Positions 4,509 through 59,958 of a stretch of 64,000 nt of DNA are shown here, piece after piece. Every line of letters begins with the position of its first letter. Position 1 is the stretch's first letter. The position numbers and the translations under genes are program-made. Source of the stretch: Planotetraspora silvatica (GTDB lineage: Bacteria > Actinomycetota > Actinomycetes > Streptosporangiales > Streptosporangiaceae); the NCBI RefSeq assembly GCF_016863315.1, contig NZ_BOOQ01000003.1, forward strand, positions 1 to 64,000, written 5' to 3'. The notes below the pieces were generated by a model. The model saw nothing but the letters and a program-made list of their open reading frames with translations, was not told the origin of the DNA and ran no database searches.

Positions 4509-5528
4509 ATGAGCAACCTGGAACGGGACCCGCAGGAGACGATTTGCGCCGGGACGGAGGCGGAGGGGCCCGTCGCGGAGCTCCTCACCGGACGCGACGT
4601 CGTGCTCGGCGGCACCCGGGGGATGAAGGTGACCAGGACCCTGCCGAACCGGGACCGCCGGATGGTCGGGGCCTGGTGCTTCATCGACTACTACGGGCCG
4701 GCGACGCATCTCATGAGCGTCCCCCCGCATCCGCACACCGGGCTGCAGACCGTCAGCTGGCTGGTCCAGGGCGAGATCCTGCATCGGGACAGCGTGGGCA
4801 GCGAGCAGCTCATCAAGCCCGGTCAACTCAACCTCATGACGGCGGGCCGGGCGATCTCCCACTCGGAGGAGTCGCTGCGCGAGACCGTCCTGCACGGGGT
4901 GCAGCTGTGGGTCGCGCTTCCCGACTCCCAGCGGAATGTCGCCCCGCACTTCGAGCACCATCAGGCCCTTCCCGTGCTGGGCGGCGCGGACGCGAACGTG
5001 ACGGTCCTCATGGGCGAACTGGACGGCGCGACGTCACCCGCGCAGACCTACACCCCCCTGGTCGGAGCCGAGATCAGCCTGGACGGCGGCGCCGAGATCC
5101 GGATTCCACTGCGCCCGGACTTCGAGCACGCGGTGCTGGCGCTGACCGGCGCCTTCGACGTCGTCTCCGGAACAGGAACAGGAACAGGAACCGGCACCGG
5201 CACCGGCACCGGCATCGGCGATGCGCAGGAGGGCGCGGCGACCTTCCTCGAGCCTGGCCCCCTGCTCTATCTCGGCTCCGACCGGGACCATCTCTCACTG
5301 CGAGCCAGCCGGCCGGGGCGGCTGCTGCTCCTTGGAGGCGAGCCGTTCGACGAAGAGATCATCATGTGGTGGAACTTCGTCGGCCGCACCTCTGAGGAGA
5401 TCGCCGCATACCGCGAGGAGTGGACCACGGGAACGGATTTCGGCACCGTCGACGGCTTCGACGGGGCCCCGCTGCCCGCCCCCGCCCTGCCCGTGACGCC
5501 GATGAAACCGCGCGGCCGGCGCAGGTGA
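4509..5528 (+). CDS. Pirin family protein (bicupin)
   Basis: A 339-residue pirin. The N-terminal cupin holds the metal-binding pattern PPHPHTG (two His) and AISHSEES (His, Glu), all present, so an iron-binding site should be intact. The C-terminal cupin ends with GGEPFDEEIIMWWNFVGR, typical of the family. Characterised pirins include quercetin dioxygenases and transcription cofactors; the substrate here cannot be read from sequence. I chose the ATG at 4509 because homologues begin MSNLE; an ATG at 4479 is also in frame. Residues 221-237 are an uninterrupted Gly-Thr run made by a hexanucleotide repeat, an unusual insertion in a cupin loop. It is divergent from the flavoprotein reductase. Confidence 0.9.
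   Translation: MSNLERDPQETICAGTEAEGPVAELLTGRDVVLGGTRGMKVTRTLPNRDRRMVGAWCFIDYYGPATHLMSVPPHPHTGLQTVSWLVQGEILHRDSVGSEQLIKPGQLNLMTAGRAISHSEESLRETVLHGVQLWVALPDSQRNVAPHFEHHQALPVLGGADANVTVLMGELDGATSPAQTYTPLVGAEISLDGGAEIRIPLRPDFEHAVLALTGAFDVVSGTGTGTGTGTGTGTGIGDAQEGAATFLEPGPLLYLGSDRDHLSLRASRPGRLLLLGGEPFDEEIIMWWNFVGRTSEEIAAYREEWTTGTDFGTVDGFDGAPLPAPALPVTPMKPRGRRR
5169..5219 (+). repeat. In-frame hexanucleotide repeat (GGA-ACA / GGC-ACC, 8 units)
   Basis: Eight consecutive six-base units encode Gly-Thr pairs (last unit Gly-Ile) inside the pirin gene. The first four use GGA ACA/ACC and the rest GGC ACC, so two sub-expansions seem to have occurred. Length changes here would keep the frame and alter only loop length. 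Confidence 0.9.
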
Positions 5529-53608: not shown

Positions 53609-54115
53609 TTAGCGGACCCCCCGGCGGCCCTTCCCCTTGGTCGTCTCCTGGGCGGGCACACCGTGGCCGGGCAGTCCCTGGTCGGGCATGCCGTGGCCAG
53701 GCAGACTCTGGCCAGGCAGTCCCTGACCGTGCACGCTCTGGCCATGCACGCTCTGGCCGTGCACGCCGCCCTGGGGCGTGCCGCCGGCCCTGGACATGCG
53801 GCTCCTCTCCCACTGGACGTACTGACCGCTCGCGCCGAGCAGCGAGGTCATCAGCCAGAGGAAGACGCCGAAGTCGTCCACGATGCCGATGCCGATGAAG
53901 AAGTCGGGGATCGCGTCGACCGGGGAGATGATGTAGGCCACCGCCAGGCCGAGCATGCCCAGCTTGCTCCGGGAGAGCCCGGGGTAGTCGCCCCTCATCG
54001 AACCGCGGATCATCCTGGGCAGCGCCCTGACCCGCGTCATCAGGCCGGGCGAACCGGGCCGGGACACCTCCTGATACGCGCGCCACGTCGCCGCCGCACG
54101 TCCCGCCTTCGCCAT
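53609..54115 (-). CDS. YkvA-family (DUF1232) membrane protein with a pentapeptide-repeat tail
   Basis: A 168-residue protein. The DUF1232 core is at about 50-95: KLGMLGLAVAYIISPVDAIPDFFIGIGIVDD, then FGVFLWLMTSLL as a second membrane segment. From residue 118 to 157 the chain is eight tandem pentapeptides (VHGQS, VHGQG, LPGQS, LPGHG, MPDQG and similar), then a basic end, KGKGRRGVR. Typical YkvA proteins stop soon after the core. GGAGG precedes the ATG. The role of the family is not known. Confidence 0.88.
   Translation of the reverse strand: MAKAGRAAATWRAYQEVSRPGSPGLMTRVRALPRMIRGSMRGDYPGLSRSKLGMLGLAVAYIISPVDAIPDFFIGIGIVDDFGVFLWLMTSLLGASGQYVQWERSRMSRAGGTPQGGVHGQSVHGQSVHGQGLPGQSLPGHGMPDQGLPGHGVPAQETTKGKGRRGVR
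53645..53764 (-). repeat. 15-bp tandem repeat encoding the YkvA tail
   Basis: Eight imperfect 15-bp units encode pentapeptides of the form [VLM][HP][GD][QH][SG]. The units nearest the N terminus are almost identical (VHGQS twice, then VHGQG); the rest diverge, so the array seems to have grown at that end. Confidence 0.85.
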
Positions 54116-54181
54116 GCCGCCACCTCCAGGAGATGAACTGCCCCCTTTGCCATCCCTTTAACGTCGCGGGTGTTCGCGCGG

Positions 54182-54258
54182 TTCCGCAGGCCCGGCGCTT
54201 CGCGGGATGCCGGGTTCGCACGGCTTCCGCAGGCCTAGCGCTTCGCGGGATGCCGGGT
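54182..54258. repeat. 34-bp direct repeat duplicating the 3' end of the depolymerase-like gene
   Basis: Copies at 54182-54215 and 54225-54258 differ at two adjacent bases. Those two bases decide whether the minus strand reads TAG (the real stop, 54235-54237) or CGG in the downstream copy. Confidence 0.85.
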
Positions 54259-56331: not shown

Positions 56332-56979
56332 TCATGCCCGCAGCTCTCGGACAACGTCGATGAAGTCCCTGGTCACCCCCCGGATACCGGGCAGGTACGA
56401 CAAGGCGACGAGCCTGTCCACCAGGGAGACCGTACGGTCGATCAGCCGGTAGGTGCGCTCGCACTCGGGCGAGGTGTCGTGGACCCAGAAGAGCACGATG
56501 CCCATCGACAACAACCAGAGCAACTCGGGCAACTCTTCGCCCAGCGCCGAGTCGATGCGGTTCTCCGACCCGTCGACCACCTGGCGGTAGATGCCGATCG
56601 CCGACTCGCGCGCGGGCGCCGACTCCGGGCTGAAGGGGCTCAGCGGGTTGGTGGGCTCGGCCGCGTGCTTGAAGAACTTCACGGCGAACTCGTGGTAGGG
56701 CTCCGAGATCCGCACCCATTCCCGGAGCACGCCGCCGAGCCGTCCGGCGAACGACTGTTCAGCCGCCAGCACCTCGCAGCAGGCCGCCTCGTGTTCCGCC
56801 TGGGCCCGGTCGTAGTAGGCCTGGATGAGCTGTTCCTTGGACGCGAAGTAGTAGTAGGCGTTTCCCACGGATATGCCGGCTTCTGCGGCGATCGCACGCA
56901 TGGTCGTCGCCTCGAAACCGCGCTCCTTGAACAGCCGAAGGGCCGTATCGACGATCAGCTGGCGTGTCTTCTCGGCCAC
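56332..56979 (-). CDS. TetR-family regulator
   Basis: A 215-residue repressor: TRQLIVDTALRLFKERGFEATTMRAIAAEAGISVGNAYYYFASKEQ is a classic TetR DNA-binding domain, followed by a helical effector domain with an unusual CC pair (AACCEVLAAE). It is 62 bp upstream of the LLM oxidoreductase gene on the same strand and diverges from the secreted peptidase-like gene across 167 bp. Confidence 0.91.
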   Translation of the reverse strand: MAEKTRQLIVDTALRLFKERGFEATTMRAIAAEAGISVGNAYYYFASKEQLIQAYYDRAQAEHEAACCEVLAAEQSFAGRLGGVLREWVRISEPYHEFAVKFFKHAAEPTNPLSPFSPESAPARESAIGIYRQVVDGSENRIDSALGEELPELLWLLSMGIVLFWVHDTSPECERTYRLIDRTVSLVDRLVALSYLPGIRGVTRDFIDVVRELRA

Positions 56980-57146
56980 TTCGTCACTGTACGGCTTTCA
57001 CCCGTGTCCGGTCATGGACCATCCACATGATCGACGGTCGCCGGCAAATTCCGGCCCCTGGCAGGAATGATCGCGCGCGGAACGTGGCATCGATCACCAT
57101 GGCGAACTCCCCCGCCACGAACAGGCGAACAGCCATCGGGGAGCAC

Positions 57147-57833
57147 ATGGGCATACATCCGTCATGGTCGGTCCTGGCAGGTGCGGCATGCACCTTCGCG
57201 CTGCTGCTGCTCGCACGACCGAGTGAGGCCACACCTGTTTCTCGAACGCCGGCGCCCCAGGCCAGCTCGGTGCCTCTCGCGGCGGGCGCCCCCCGGTCGA
57301 CCGCCGAGGCGCCGCAACCTCCGTCACTGCCTCTCGGAGCCGATCCACCGGCCGTCGCCGAGCCGCTGGTGGGCACGTTCAGCGCGACGATCCGGACCTG
57401 GGACACCTCCGTCACGGCCGTGCGGATGGATCAGGCGGAGGCCATGCACGACCTCCTGTCCGCCGGCCTCGGCTGGAAGTCGAGCGGGCACTGCGTGGAC
57501 GCCGACCGGCGCACCTGCACGTCACTGGACGACATCAGGTACGGCACGCTCATGCAGGCCATCGATCTGAAGCGCTCGAGCGGATGCCCGATCATCGTGA
57601 CCGGAGGGACGGAGAAGGGCCACGCGGGGGGCTATTTCAGCCACAGGAACGGCTTCAAGGTCGACATCGCGCACAACGCGTGCGTCGACTCCTACATCAC
57701 CAAGACGTACCGCTTCTGGAAGGTCAGAGGAGACGGAGCCGACCTCTACCGCCCGCCCCCGGCCCCCGGTCCCCCCTCAGACCCAGACGTCTACGCCGAC
57801 GAACCCACCCACTGGGACATCCTCTTCCACTAA
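57147..57833 (+). CDS. Secreted M15/DD-peptidase-fold protein
   Basis: A 228-residue exported protein: signal peptide (WSVLAGAACTFALLLLARPSEA), a Pro/Ala-rich linker to about residue 75, then a compact domain. Zinc-peptidase features of family M15 are visible: S165-H166-RNG-FKV-D173 fits SxHxxGxAxD-type spacing (His and Asp ligands), and E219-PT-H222-W fits the ExxHW motif (catalytic Glu, third ligand). TGGTEKGHAGG before them is shared with similar secreted proteins. Likely a peptidoglycan-stem D,D- or L,D-peptidase, inferred from motif only. ATG 57147 follows GGGGAG. Its 3' flank carries the 53-bp-period array. Confidence 0.8.
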   Translation: MGIHPSWSVLAGAACTFALLLLARPSEATPVSRTPAPQASSVPLAAGAPRSTAEAPQPPSLPLGADPPAVAEPLVGTFSATIRTWDTSVTAVRMDQAEAMHDLLSAGLGWKSSGHCVDADRRTCTSLDDIRYGTLMQAIDLKRSSGCPIIVTGGTEKGHAGGYFSHRNGFKVDIAHNACVDSYITKTYRFWKVRGDGADLYRPPPAPGPPSDPDVYADEPTHWDILFH

Positions 57834-57850
57834 CCCCCCAACCAACCCGC

Positions 57851-58029
57851 CGTGATCATGCACAGGTTCGGGGATTGTGCTCGTACGCTGCACAAACACA
57901 ATTCGTGATCATGCACAGGTTCGCCTATCACTGAGCCGACCAGGCAAGACGACGAGCGTGATCATGCACAGATTCGGCGAATGCCCACCCGAGCTGGGCA
58001 CACACGCTCCGTGATCATGCACTGACGGC
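57851..58029 (+). repeat. Forward block of a 53-bp-period element array (4 copies)
   Basis: Copies of CGTGATCATGCACAGGTTCG start at 57851, 57904, 57957 and 58010, exactly 53 bp apart, leaving 33-bp intervals. The first two are identical, the third has one change, the fourth keeps only its first 13 bases. The block begins 18 bases past the M15-like gene's stop. A loose TGACCTGC-like octamer (five of eight matching) occupies positions 14-21 of each interval. Confidence 0.95.
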
Positions 58030-58042
58030 GCCTCAAGGCGCC
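58027..58042. other. Central perfect hairpin of the array
   Basis: GGCGCC-TCAA-GGCGCC: six perfect G-C pairs and a tetraloop, in the 60-bp gap where the two repeat blocks meet head to head. Confidence 0.75.
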
Positions 58043-58089
58043 CGTACGGCCCGAGCGCGCACAATCAGATCTCGCACGCATCACCAACC

Positions 58090-58374
58090 CAGGAGCGTGC
58101 ATGATCGCGCACGACATTCACCCTGATCCGCGCAAGCATCCAGGAAAGCGTGCATGATCACGCGGGGCATTTCCCCAGGCCATCCAGGCAATCCACGAAC
58201 CTATGCATGATCACGGATCGCGTTCGCGCAGGTCAACCACTCACCGGCCGAACCTGTGCATGATCACGGCCGATGTCGCCGCAGGTCAGGCGCAATCTCT
58301 CCGAACCTATGCATGATCACGCGCGGGGGGTGTGCAGGTCACACCCACCGCGCACGAACTTGTGCATGATCACG
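58090..58374 (-). repeat. Inverted block of the 53-bp-period array (6 copies), ending in the asd stop codon
   Basis: The same element, on the minus strand, starts (left edge) at 58090, 58143, 58196, 58249, 58302 and 58355, again 53 bp apart. The copy at 58249 is an exact reverse complement of the forward copies; 58196, 58302 and 58355 have one change each; 58143 and 58090 are decayed. In the intervals after 58196, 58249 and 58302 the octamer GCAGGTCA is exact and always at positions 13-20; it is 6/8 and 4/8 in the two preceding intervals. The last copy overlaps the asd TGA (58370-58372). Confidence 0.95.
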
Positions 58375-59440
58375 CCGAGAATTCGGTGGCTACCAGGGCG
58401 GCGATTTCGGCTGTGTTGAGGGCTGCGCCCTTGCGGAGGTTGTCACCGCACACGAACAGGTCCAGGGTGTTCGGGAAGTCGAGCGCCTGACGGATCCGGC
58501 CGACGTAGGTCGGGTCGGTCCCCACGACATCGGCGGGAGTCGGGAAGACGCCGTTCGCCGGATCGTCGAGCACCACCACGGTCGGCGCGGCCTCGAGGAC
58601 CGAACGGGCTCCCTCGACCGTGACCTCCTTCTCGAACGTCGCGTGGACGGCCAGAGAGTGGGTGGTCACGACCGGGACGCGGACGCAGGTCGCCGACACC
58701 TTGAGATCGGGGATGCCGAGGATCTTGCGCGACTCGTTGCGGACCTTGAGCTCCTCCGACGACCAGCCGCCGTCCTTGAGGGAGCCCGCCCACGGCACCA
58801 CGTTGAGCGCCAGCGGAGCGGGGAACGGCGACCCTGCCAGGTCGGGCACGGCCTTGCGCACGTCGCCCGCGACGGTGCCCATCGTCCGGTCTCCGGCGAC
58901 GGCCTCGATCTCGTCGTACAGCCGCTCGGGGCCGACCATTCCGGCGCCGGAGACCGCCTGGTACGAGGCGACCACCAGTTCGCGCAGGCCGTACTGGCGG
59001 TGCAGCGCGCCCATGGCGGCCATCATCGACAACGTCGTGCAGTTGGGATTCGCGATGATGCCCTTGGGCCGCTCCAGCGCCTTCTCCGGGTTGCACTCGG
59101 GGACCACGAGCGGCACGTCGGGGTCCATCCGGAACGCGCCGGAGTTGTCCACCGCCACCGCGCCCCGAGAGGCGGCGATCGGCGCCCATTCGGCCGACAC
59201 CTCGTCGGGCACGTCGAACATCACGATGTCGACGCCGTCGAACGCCTCGGGGGCCAGCGCCTGGACGACGGCGTCCTCGCCGCGAACCTGGAGCACCTTT
59301 CCGGCCGACCGAGGAGAGGCGATCAGCCGGATCTCCCCGTACGCCTCGGAGAGGTCGGGCCGGTTGGTCAGGATGTCGAGCATGACGGTGCCGACGGCTC
59401 CGGTCGCACCGACCACGGCCAGCGTGGGCTTGCGGCTCAT
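58370..59440 (-). CDS. asd: Aspartate-semialdehyde dehydrogenase
   Basis: A 356-residue enzyme reducing aspartyl phosphate to aspartate semialdehyde for lysine, threonine, methionine and diaminopimelate. NADP-binding [16 protein letters not shown], catalytic Cys in [12 protein letters not shown], substrate residues in [15 protein letters not shown] and catalytic His in [15 protein letters not shown]. The ATG overlaps the ask stop by four bases (ATGA), so the two are coupled. Its stop codon lies inside the last copy of the 53-bp array. Confidence 0.96.
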
Positions 59441-59958
59441 CGTCCGGTACCTCCGTAAACGACGGCCTCGACCTGGTCGGAGTCGAGGTCGAATGCCCGG
59501 TGCGCGGCGTTGACGGCCGCGTCCACGTCGTTCTGCCCCACGACGACGGAGATGCGGATCTCGGAGGTTGAGATCATCTCGATGTTCACCCCGGCGTCGG
59601 CCAGCGCGCCGAAGAACTTGGCGGTCACGCCCGGGTGCGACCGCATCCCGGCGCCGATCAGCGAGACCTTGCCGATCTGGTCGTCGTAGAGCAGCTTCTC
59701 GAAGCCGACCCGGCTCTGCATCTTGTTCAGCGCGGTGAGCGCCGTCTGGCTGTCGTTGGTCGGCAGCGTGAACGAGATGTCCGTCCGCCCGGTGGCGGCG
59801 GCCGAGACGTTCTGGACGATCATGTCGATGTTGATCTCGGCGTCGGCCAGCGTGCGGAAGATGGCCGCAGCCTCGCCGACCTTGTCCGGCACGCCGACCA
59901 CAGTGATCTTGGCCTCGCTCCGGTCATGTGCGACGCCGGAGATGATGGGCTGCTCCAT
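59437..59958 (-). CDS. Aspartate kinase beta chain from an internal start (predicted)
   Basis: An in-frame ATG at 59958 ([10 protein letters not shown]) inside the aspartate kinase gene is preceded by AAGGA about six bases upstream. Starting there gives a 173-residue product comprising the two ACT domains, the size of the beta subunit known from Corynebacterium and Bacillus aspartokinases. The prediction rests on spacing and family knowledge. Confidence 0.6.

Follow-up and report, generated by a model that had tools for sequence, protein, structure and literature searches.

What does an array of ten evenly spaced copies of one short word do in the gap between two convergent genes of Planotetraspora silvatica, and is it peculiar to this place? 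The window, i.e. the whole stretch of DNA analysed (64,000 nucleotides), had been described in an earlier note as containing ten copies of a 20-bp element in two facing blocks of four and six, with a period of 53 bp. A copy of the core is present at all ten positions, and the period is exact in eight of eight spacings within the blocks. The equality of the ten elements could be upheld only in part. The 20-mer was found seven times in the window with up to three mismatches, compared with 0.01 expected copies, and none of 100 shuffled sequences reached seven. The copy at 58143 differs by four mismatches, and in the innermost copies at 58010 (+) and 58090 (-) the match is limited to the first 13 bases, exactly in the former and with one mismatch in its minus counterpart. 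Since only these 13 bases match, the two facing blocks are made up of three full units plus a bare core on the plus strand and of five full units plus a bare core on the minus strand, instead of four and six equal elements (Table 1).

Table 1. Features of the array and of its neighbouring genes in the window
Feature	Position	Strand	Remark
C-rich leader, between left gene's stop codon and plus block	57834..57850	+	
Full unit 1, plus block	57851..57903	+	
Full unit 2, plus block	57904..57956	+	
Full unit 3, plus block	57957..58009	+	
Terminal bare 13-bp core, plus block	58010..58022	+	
Terminal bare core, minus block	58097..58109	-	1 mismatch in 13
Full unit 5 (innermost), minus block	58110..58162	-	4 mismatches to 20-mer
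Full unit 4, minus block	58163..58215	-	
Full unit 3, minus block	58216..58268	-	
Full unit 2, minus block	58269..58321	-	
Full unit 1, minus block	58322..58374	-	asd stop codon inside its CG-TGA
Left neighbour gene	56964..57833	+	start uncertain; other candidate start 57270
asd, aspartate-semialdehyde dehydrogenase	58370..59440	-	Pfam PF01118, PF02774

The terminal cores of the facing pair lie 74 bp apart, and the minus block opens on the stop codon of asd (CG-TGA at 58374-58370). The identity of this neighbour was confirmed by Pfam; its protein shares 98% identity with that of Planotetraspora mira, 93-96% with those of other Planotetraspora and 90-93% with those of Microbispora. The label "M15-like" given to the left gene remained unconfirmed, as the scanned 187-aa part (57270-57830) gave no hit in Pfam at E 0.001. 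A scan of 56900-59500 against Rfam yielded no match up to E 1. Further tandem repeats with periods of 15 bp and 45 bp, together with a 43-bp unit present twice, were detected at 53647-53766 and 54172-54258 of the window.

The array is not peculiar to this gap. In the whole 8.66-Mb genome (G000) the 20-mer has 735 copies with up to three mismatches (375 + 360), while the reversed control has none, and the counts in four further Planotetraspora genomes are 663, 717, 259 and 744. The chain search accepted spacings of 51-55 bp, so that blocks with larger spacing shifts would escape detection, and revealed 71 chains in 1.264 Mb of the genome, 62 of which comprise three to five cores. The spacing between cores is 53 bp in 195 of 204 cases, 52 bp in eight and 55 bp in one. 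According to the earlier note, an element absent or unphased in close relatives, or single copies with random spacing elsewhere, would have made the period an accident of one recent amplification; the arrays of the close relatives are in phase and solitary chains account for 7 of the 71. The array is real and represents one of roughly 270 such elements in the genome, a number extrapolated from 39 elements in 1.26 Mb.

A strict set compiled from seven genomes contains 146 blocks, and 94 elements have called genes on both sides, 39 of them in G000. For this set a block was dropped when a better block on the opposite strand overlapped it (172 reduced to 146), because the near-palindromic core read on both strands gives false outward pairs such as "-+". 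The facing pairs are directed inward in 47 of 47 cases, a count that depends on this filter. In 16 of these pairs the terminal cores are separated by 10 or 11 bp, and in the others the distance ranges from 0 to 138 bp. The unit follows the formula CGTGATCATGCAC-N3-TTCG-N13-TGACCTGC-N12, and the consensus of 320 Planotetraspora units reads CGTGATCATGCACAGgTTCGg.ga.a.gcCc.CtGACCTGCgc..AC.Cc. Every block closes at its inner end with a bare core that lacks both TTCG and the TGACCTGC box. The intervals between the elements, which had been called divergent, do indeed differ, but throughout the family they have in common a TTCG at positions 17-20 of the unit and letters resembling TGACCTGC at positions 34-41. 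Outside the first core the 5' flank is rich in C (50-73% at -15 to -6 in 100 blocks).

The units of a block are not equivalent. Mismatches to the 20-mer increase in G000 from 0.92 in the first full unit to 2.21 in the last one (63 blocks, p 3e-7), and the same trend was observed in G001 and G002 taken together (37 blocks, p 4e-4) as well as in G062 (20 blocks, p 0.02). The exchange of A for G at core position 12 occurs in 37% of the last full units and in 4% of the outer units, with a p value of 1e-14 that is optimistic because orthologous blocks of three species were pooled; in G000 alone, position 12 is a G in 41-50% of the last full units of blocks with three, four or five cores compared to 0-10% further out. 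Matches to TGACCTGC are roughly even along the blocks with four and five cores (50-64%) and drop to 0% in the terminal core.

The gene context was assessed with genes called by a purpose-written script, orthologous elements being counted once per species. The counts, pooled over G000, G001 and G002 and therefore mutually dependent, place 32 of the 94 elements in convergent, 58 in tandem and four in divergent gaps, with 159, 525 and 218 such gaps of at least 100 bp being available (13, 23 and three elements, respectively, in G000 alone). Thus, the description as an element between convergent genes fits about a third of the cases and is too narrow. Divergent gaps are avoided (4/218 versus 90/684 others, p 8e-8).

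Convergent gaps are somewhat enriched over tandem ones (32/159 versus 58/525, p 0.005), as might be expected if the element acted as RNA at the 3' ends of transcripts, i.e. as a C-rich 3'-UTR element bound by a protein or by Rho, with the central inverted repeat serving as a two-way terminator. The C-rich 5' flank on the strand of the unit agrees with this explanation. So does the overlap with stop codons: among 99 blocks that lie close to the end of a gene on their own strand, 21 have a first core whose TGA also terminates that gene, and the same applies to six of 20 loci from other genomes (L208, L212, L221, L222, L225, L226), two of which belong to other families. Furthermore, the centres of facing pairs fold strongly (z below -2 in 27 of 29). 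However, this folding is explained by the two inverted cores alone, the inverted repeat being limited to the centre of facing pairs, and the inner end of a single block shows no unusual structure (z below -2 in 7 of 32, compared with 29% of 117 control stretches); a terminator hairpin as the common block end therefore holds for facing pairs and fails for single blocks. A high C content of the flank was observed with upstream genes on either strand (17 and 24 flanks), which led us to reject a Rho-type signal as the main cause. Single blocks in tandem gaps run along transcription in 19 cases and against it in 13 (p 0.38), and since they point either way the element fits better to DNA than to a sense transcript. 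An RNA fold of the unit was rejected, as no Watson-Crick covariation was detected among the 320 units (highest z 2.8 for any pair of columns), the unit having no covarying stem. Taking furthermore into account the empty Rfam scan, it seems unlikely that the arrays act as RNA.

Other candidate explanations drawn from the surroundings of the arrays were rejected as well. A passenger gene common to the facing blocks was not found, L207 containing an ordinary 234-aa ORF and L227 a DUF309 gene; the latter is enclosed by a pair of facing blocks in two species (L227 855-1762, L228 633-1552), and two units belonging to opposite blocks are nearly identical. Among 216 array-side proteins six cross-genus pairs of homologous neighbours were detected, with no recurring candidate. 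A phage origin was dismissed too: the seven predicted viral stretches, none of which shows more than two cores among the matches listed, were treated as chance.

The comparison with sister species allowed us to distinguish what is kept in the arrays from what is not. In G002, the genes of which are 97.5% identical, 10 of the 11 orthologous gaps that could be tested contain an array, and the eleventh (62898) also has one that was masked by a false small gene. In G001 (genes 92% identical) an array was found at 10 of 11 testable gaps, the exception being 27031; the array at 346756 has the opposite sign there, and 62898 is outside the testable set. These stable positions speak against the mobile repeat which the earlier note had offered as an option. 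Orthologous 13-mers are changed at 2.7% (G002) and 3.4% (G001) of their positions, mostly at position 12, the spacers at 13-15% and 35-36%, and array-less orthologous gaps at 4.5% and 11.9% (110 and 112 gaps). Hence, the spacers evolve faster than ordinary gaps, while core and length change far more slowly. Orthologous units are of different length in 1 of 42 pairs (G002) and in 0 of 29 (G001), or 1 of 71 overall, whereas array-less gaps accumulate 0.0084 and 0.0219 indels per bp, rates that predict about 14 and 25 length changes in equal lengths of spacer. The selection on geometry postulated from the window is supported by these figures, which make the argument for selected length strong but not closed, because exchange between units also keeps length and the chain search misses large shifts.

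That such exchange takes place follows from the fast spacers together with the likeness of units of equal index in facing blocks, whose similarity exceeds that of other units (0.505 versus 0.448) and which reach an identity of at least 70% in 8.4% of the cases compared with 1.2%. The likeness thus suggests that sequence is exchanged between the two blocks. Moreover, the number of units differs by whole units between orthologous arrays (e.g. 5, 5, 3), and one array in G001 contains two identical adjacent units. The likeness, the changing number of units and the identical neighbours would also be expected of a selfish or recombination-driven repeat resembling REP, MIRU or minisatellites that is tolerated in promoter-free gaps and owes its sameness to copying and conversion. 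The avoidance of divergent gaps would suit such a repeat, and insertion at stop codons would yield the -4 overlap. However, conversion would homogenise whole units, and the parts kept here are the core and the boxes only; neither the ordered unit types nor the same positions in three species are readily explained in this way. In addition, the Y1 transposase family (Y1_Tnp, PF01797) has no match in G000 and is absent from 7 of the 12 array-bearing genomes scanned, G000 included, and present in five.

The distribution beyond the sister species bears on the same question. Within the order, the two-core pattern is matched by 15 of 345 genomes, which belong to the genera g1 (5/5), g59 (1/1), g34 (2/2), g65 (5/15, including one genome that matches just once), g51 and g46 (one genome each), the match in g46 probably being due to chance. 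At class level, the pattern occurs in 6 of 394 genomes, and at least 20 copies of the 12-bp core were counted in 7 of 256 (G000, G373, G432, G371, G491, G414, G120), all others having at most six. This patchy spread is in favour of a selfish repeat. On the other hand, some loci are shared across genera. For four of 30 elements from other genera, the sample contained a neighbour gene suitable for comparison, and two of these four adjoin a Planotetraspora array; the shared junctions are supported by both neighbours in G120 and by one in G168, against a background of about 3% of gaps that carry an array. The asd gap contains arrays in P. kaengkrachanensis and P. thailandica, a collapsed copy in P. 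phitsanulokensis and, in Sphaerimonospora mesophila, an array in a CTTGCA dialect, the last of which again argues against a selfish repeat. The sequence of P. mira stops at the contig end in this gap, the asd gap of Planotetraspora sp. A-T 1434 contains no array, and none was seen at the other 74 asd loci. Overall, we regard a selfish origin as improbable, slightly more so than an action as RNA.

In the asd gap of P. phitsanulokensis (L099, about 5066-5134) one unit is left, which is closed by an inverted half core and contains an inner hairpin around GACCAGC. Unrelated tandem repeats were detected in the asd gap of other genera, such as 49-bp near-identical units in the 3' region of asd in Nonomuraea typhae (L126, about 5065-5220), as well as in L113, L116 and L077, with 30-bp steps in L077 and L113. 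The side of asd thus seems to be prone to lineage-specific repeats.

The matching genera retain the 53-bp unit and the GACCTG box at the same offsets, whereas their cores differ in dialect, e.g. TTCC in G062 and CGTGATCTTGCA...TCGCA in G086 and G168. Spacings are looser in G062 (53 bp in 42 of 59, 52 bp in 15 and 51 bp in two; lax block set), and in the distant families of G373, G432 and G491 facing C-rich arrays have spacings of about 30-55 bp. Since 52 bp is common in G062 and the distant families are loose, a fixed distance of 53 bp is not needed everywhere. The earlier assumption that all elements of a block face the same side of the helix is not supported by this variation or by the information profile of the unit, in which the 10.5-bp signal of a helical period of 10-11 bp is not significant (permutation p 0.053). 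In one other genus (G053 and G092) pairs also point outward. At one locus of G053 (L217 199-806), nine cores are crowded into 600 bp and alternate strictly in orientation, the pairs being separated by about 57-60 bp, and G091 has isolated perfect palindromes of 41 bp, CGTGATCATGCAATCGTTCG-N-CGAACGATTGCATGATCACG, at L215 9329-9370 and L216 258-299.

A short word in hundreds of copies, with dialects by lineage and inverted pairs in gaps, is also characteristic of the uptake sequences of Neisseriaceae, for which inverted pairs and an association with terminators have been reported (PMC3630211). A self-recognition word for DNA import is nevertheless highly improbable here, given that the copies sit in ordered multi-unit arrays and are nearly absent from coding sequence in the sample, five of the seven solitary chains being flagged inside genes.

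Word, spacing and order look preserved by selection, which suggests that some component of the cell probably reads the arrays. The core, the boxes, the length, the order and the place are kept, while the spacers, any base pairing and the strand relative to the genes are not, and this combination fits best to DNA bound by protein. We therefore favour, with a probability of roughly 0.55, the reading that each block is an ordered DNA-binding array for one putative sequence-specific protein. Such a protein would bind the core CGTGATCATGCA and, within this bacterial family, presumably also the TGACCTGC box, which lies 31 bp more inward, with adjacent protomers touching each other across the 53 bp. 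The complex may begin at the C-rich outer edge and be capped by the bare inner core; in facing pairs two complexes would meet at the inverted repeat. Once assembled, it might serve as a mark or an insulator between transcription units, in the form of a boundary, a roadblock or a nucleoid-anchoring site, and the reader protein would be expected to co-evolve with the core word.

Each element would then contain outer, middle, penultimate and terminal sites in this order and consist of one block or of two inward-facing blocks. We tentatively propose that ordered polar nucleoprotein arrays of this kind form a new class of chromosome element, possibly inherited at fixed loci in hundreds of gaps, with dialects shifting along with the putative reader and with looser cousins across several actinobacterial families; this wider proposal is rather less secure than the protein-bound array itself. 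Should a protein read the arrays, these bacteria would possess several hundred polar intergenic sites of fixed geometry that are candidates for boundary, nucleoid or transcription-control sites in Actinomycetes. The dialects offer a direct route to the reader, which should be present where the word is and should change where the word changes.

Several known systems resemble the arrays in part. REP elements and BIMEs are intergenic, present in hundreds of copies, arranged in inverted pairs and avoid promoters. The arrays share these features, but they are direct-repeat blocks of fixed period, and their unit has neither a covarying hairpin nor a palindromic stem; an identity with REP sequences mobilised by RAYT was rejected for this genome due to the lack of a Y1 transposase. 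The mycobacterial MIRU include a 53-bp class and overlap with stop codons. By description, the arrays differ from them in their facing blocks and in a conservation limited to the core. A CRISPR array was rejected because the spacers are not unrelated foreign sequence and carry TTCG and TGACCTGC at fixed positions, and a known RNA family or intrinsic terminator because of the missing Rfam matches up to E 1 and of single-block ends no more folded than controls. The DUS of Neisseriaceae likewise combine a high-copy short word with lineage dialects and inverted pairs in gaps (PMC3630211), whereas the word described here is placed in arrays of fixed period.

The earlier note knew of no described family of this form, and no matching description was found in titles and abstracts among the literature matches listed, subscription literature being outside the scope of the search; the STAR repeats of Staphylococcus aureus are anatomically close, however, and represent the nearest known kind. 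According to PMC3532100, STAR elements are intergenic direct repeats of a 14-bp motif, T(G/A/T)TGTTG(G/T)GGCCC(C/A), separated by spacers of 40-44 bp, with one to seven copies per locus and a repeat number that varies between strains. The same source reports 62-90 motifs at 32-39 loci, mostly with a single motif, and no locus common to two species, and the words "inverted", "orientation" and "convergent" are absent from that paper. The arrays described here are likewise direct intergenic repeats, consisting of a 13-bp core followed by 40 bp, with the corresponding spacing of 53 bp in 195 of 204 cases. However, their consensus CGTGATCATGCAC does not fit the printed STAR motif when compared by eye. 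They differ furthermore in their 735 copies, in the usual three to five copies per block, in the inward-facing pairs, the fixed 53 bp and the second internal box, as well as in the ordered unit types and in loci common to three species and, for some, across genera. The facing pairs, the ordered unit types, the second box and the loci shared between species set the element apart from both STAR and DUS. The arrays of Planotetraspora provide a sharper relative to the STAR repeats, the function of which is reported as unknown (PMC3532100).
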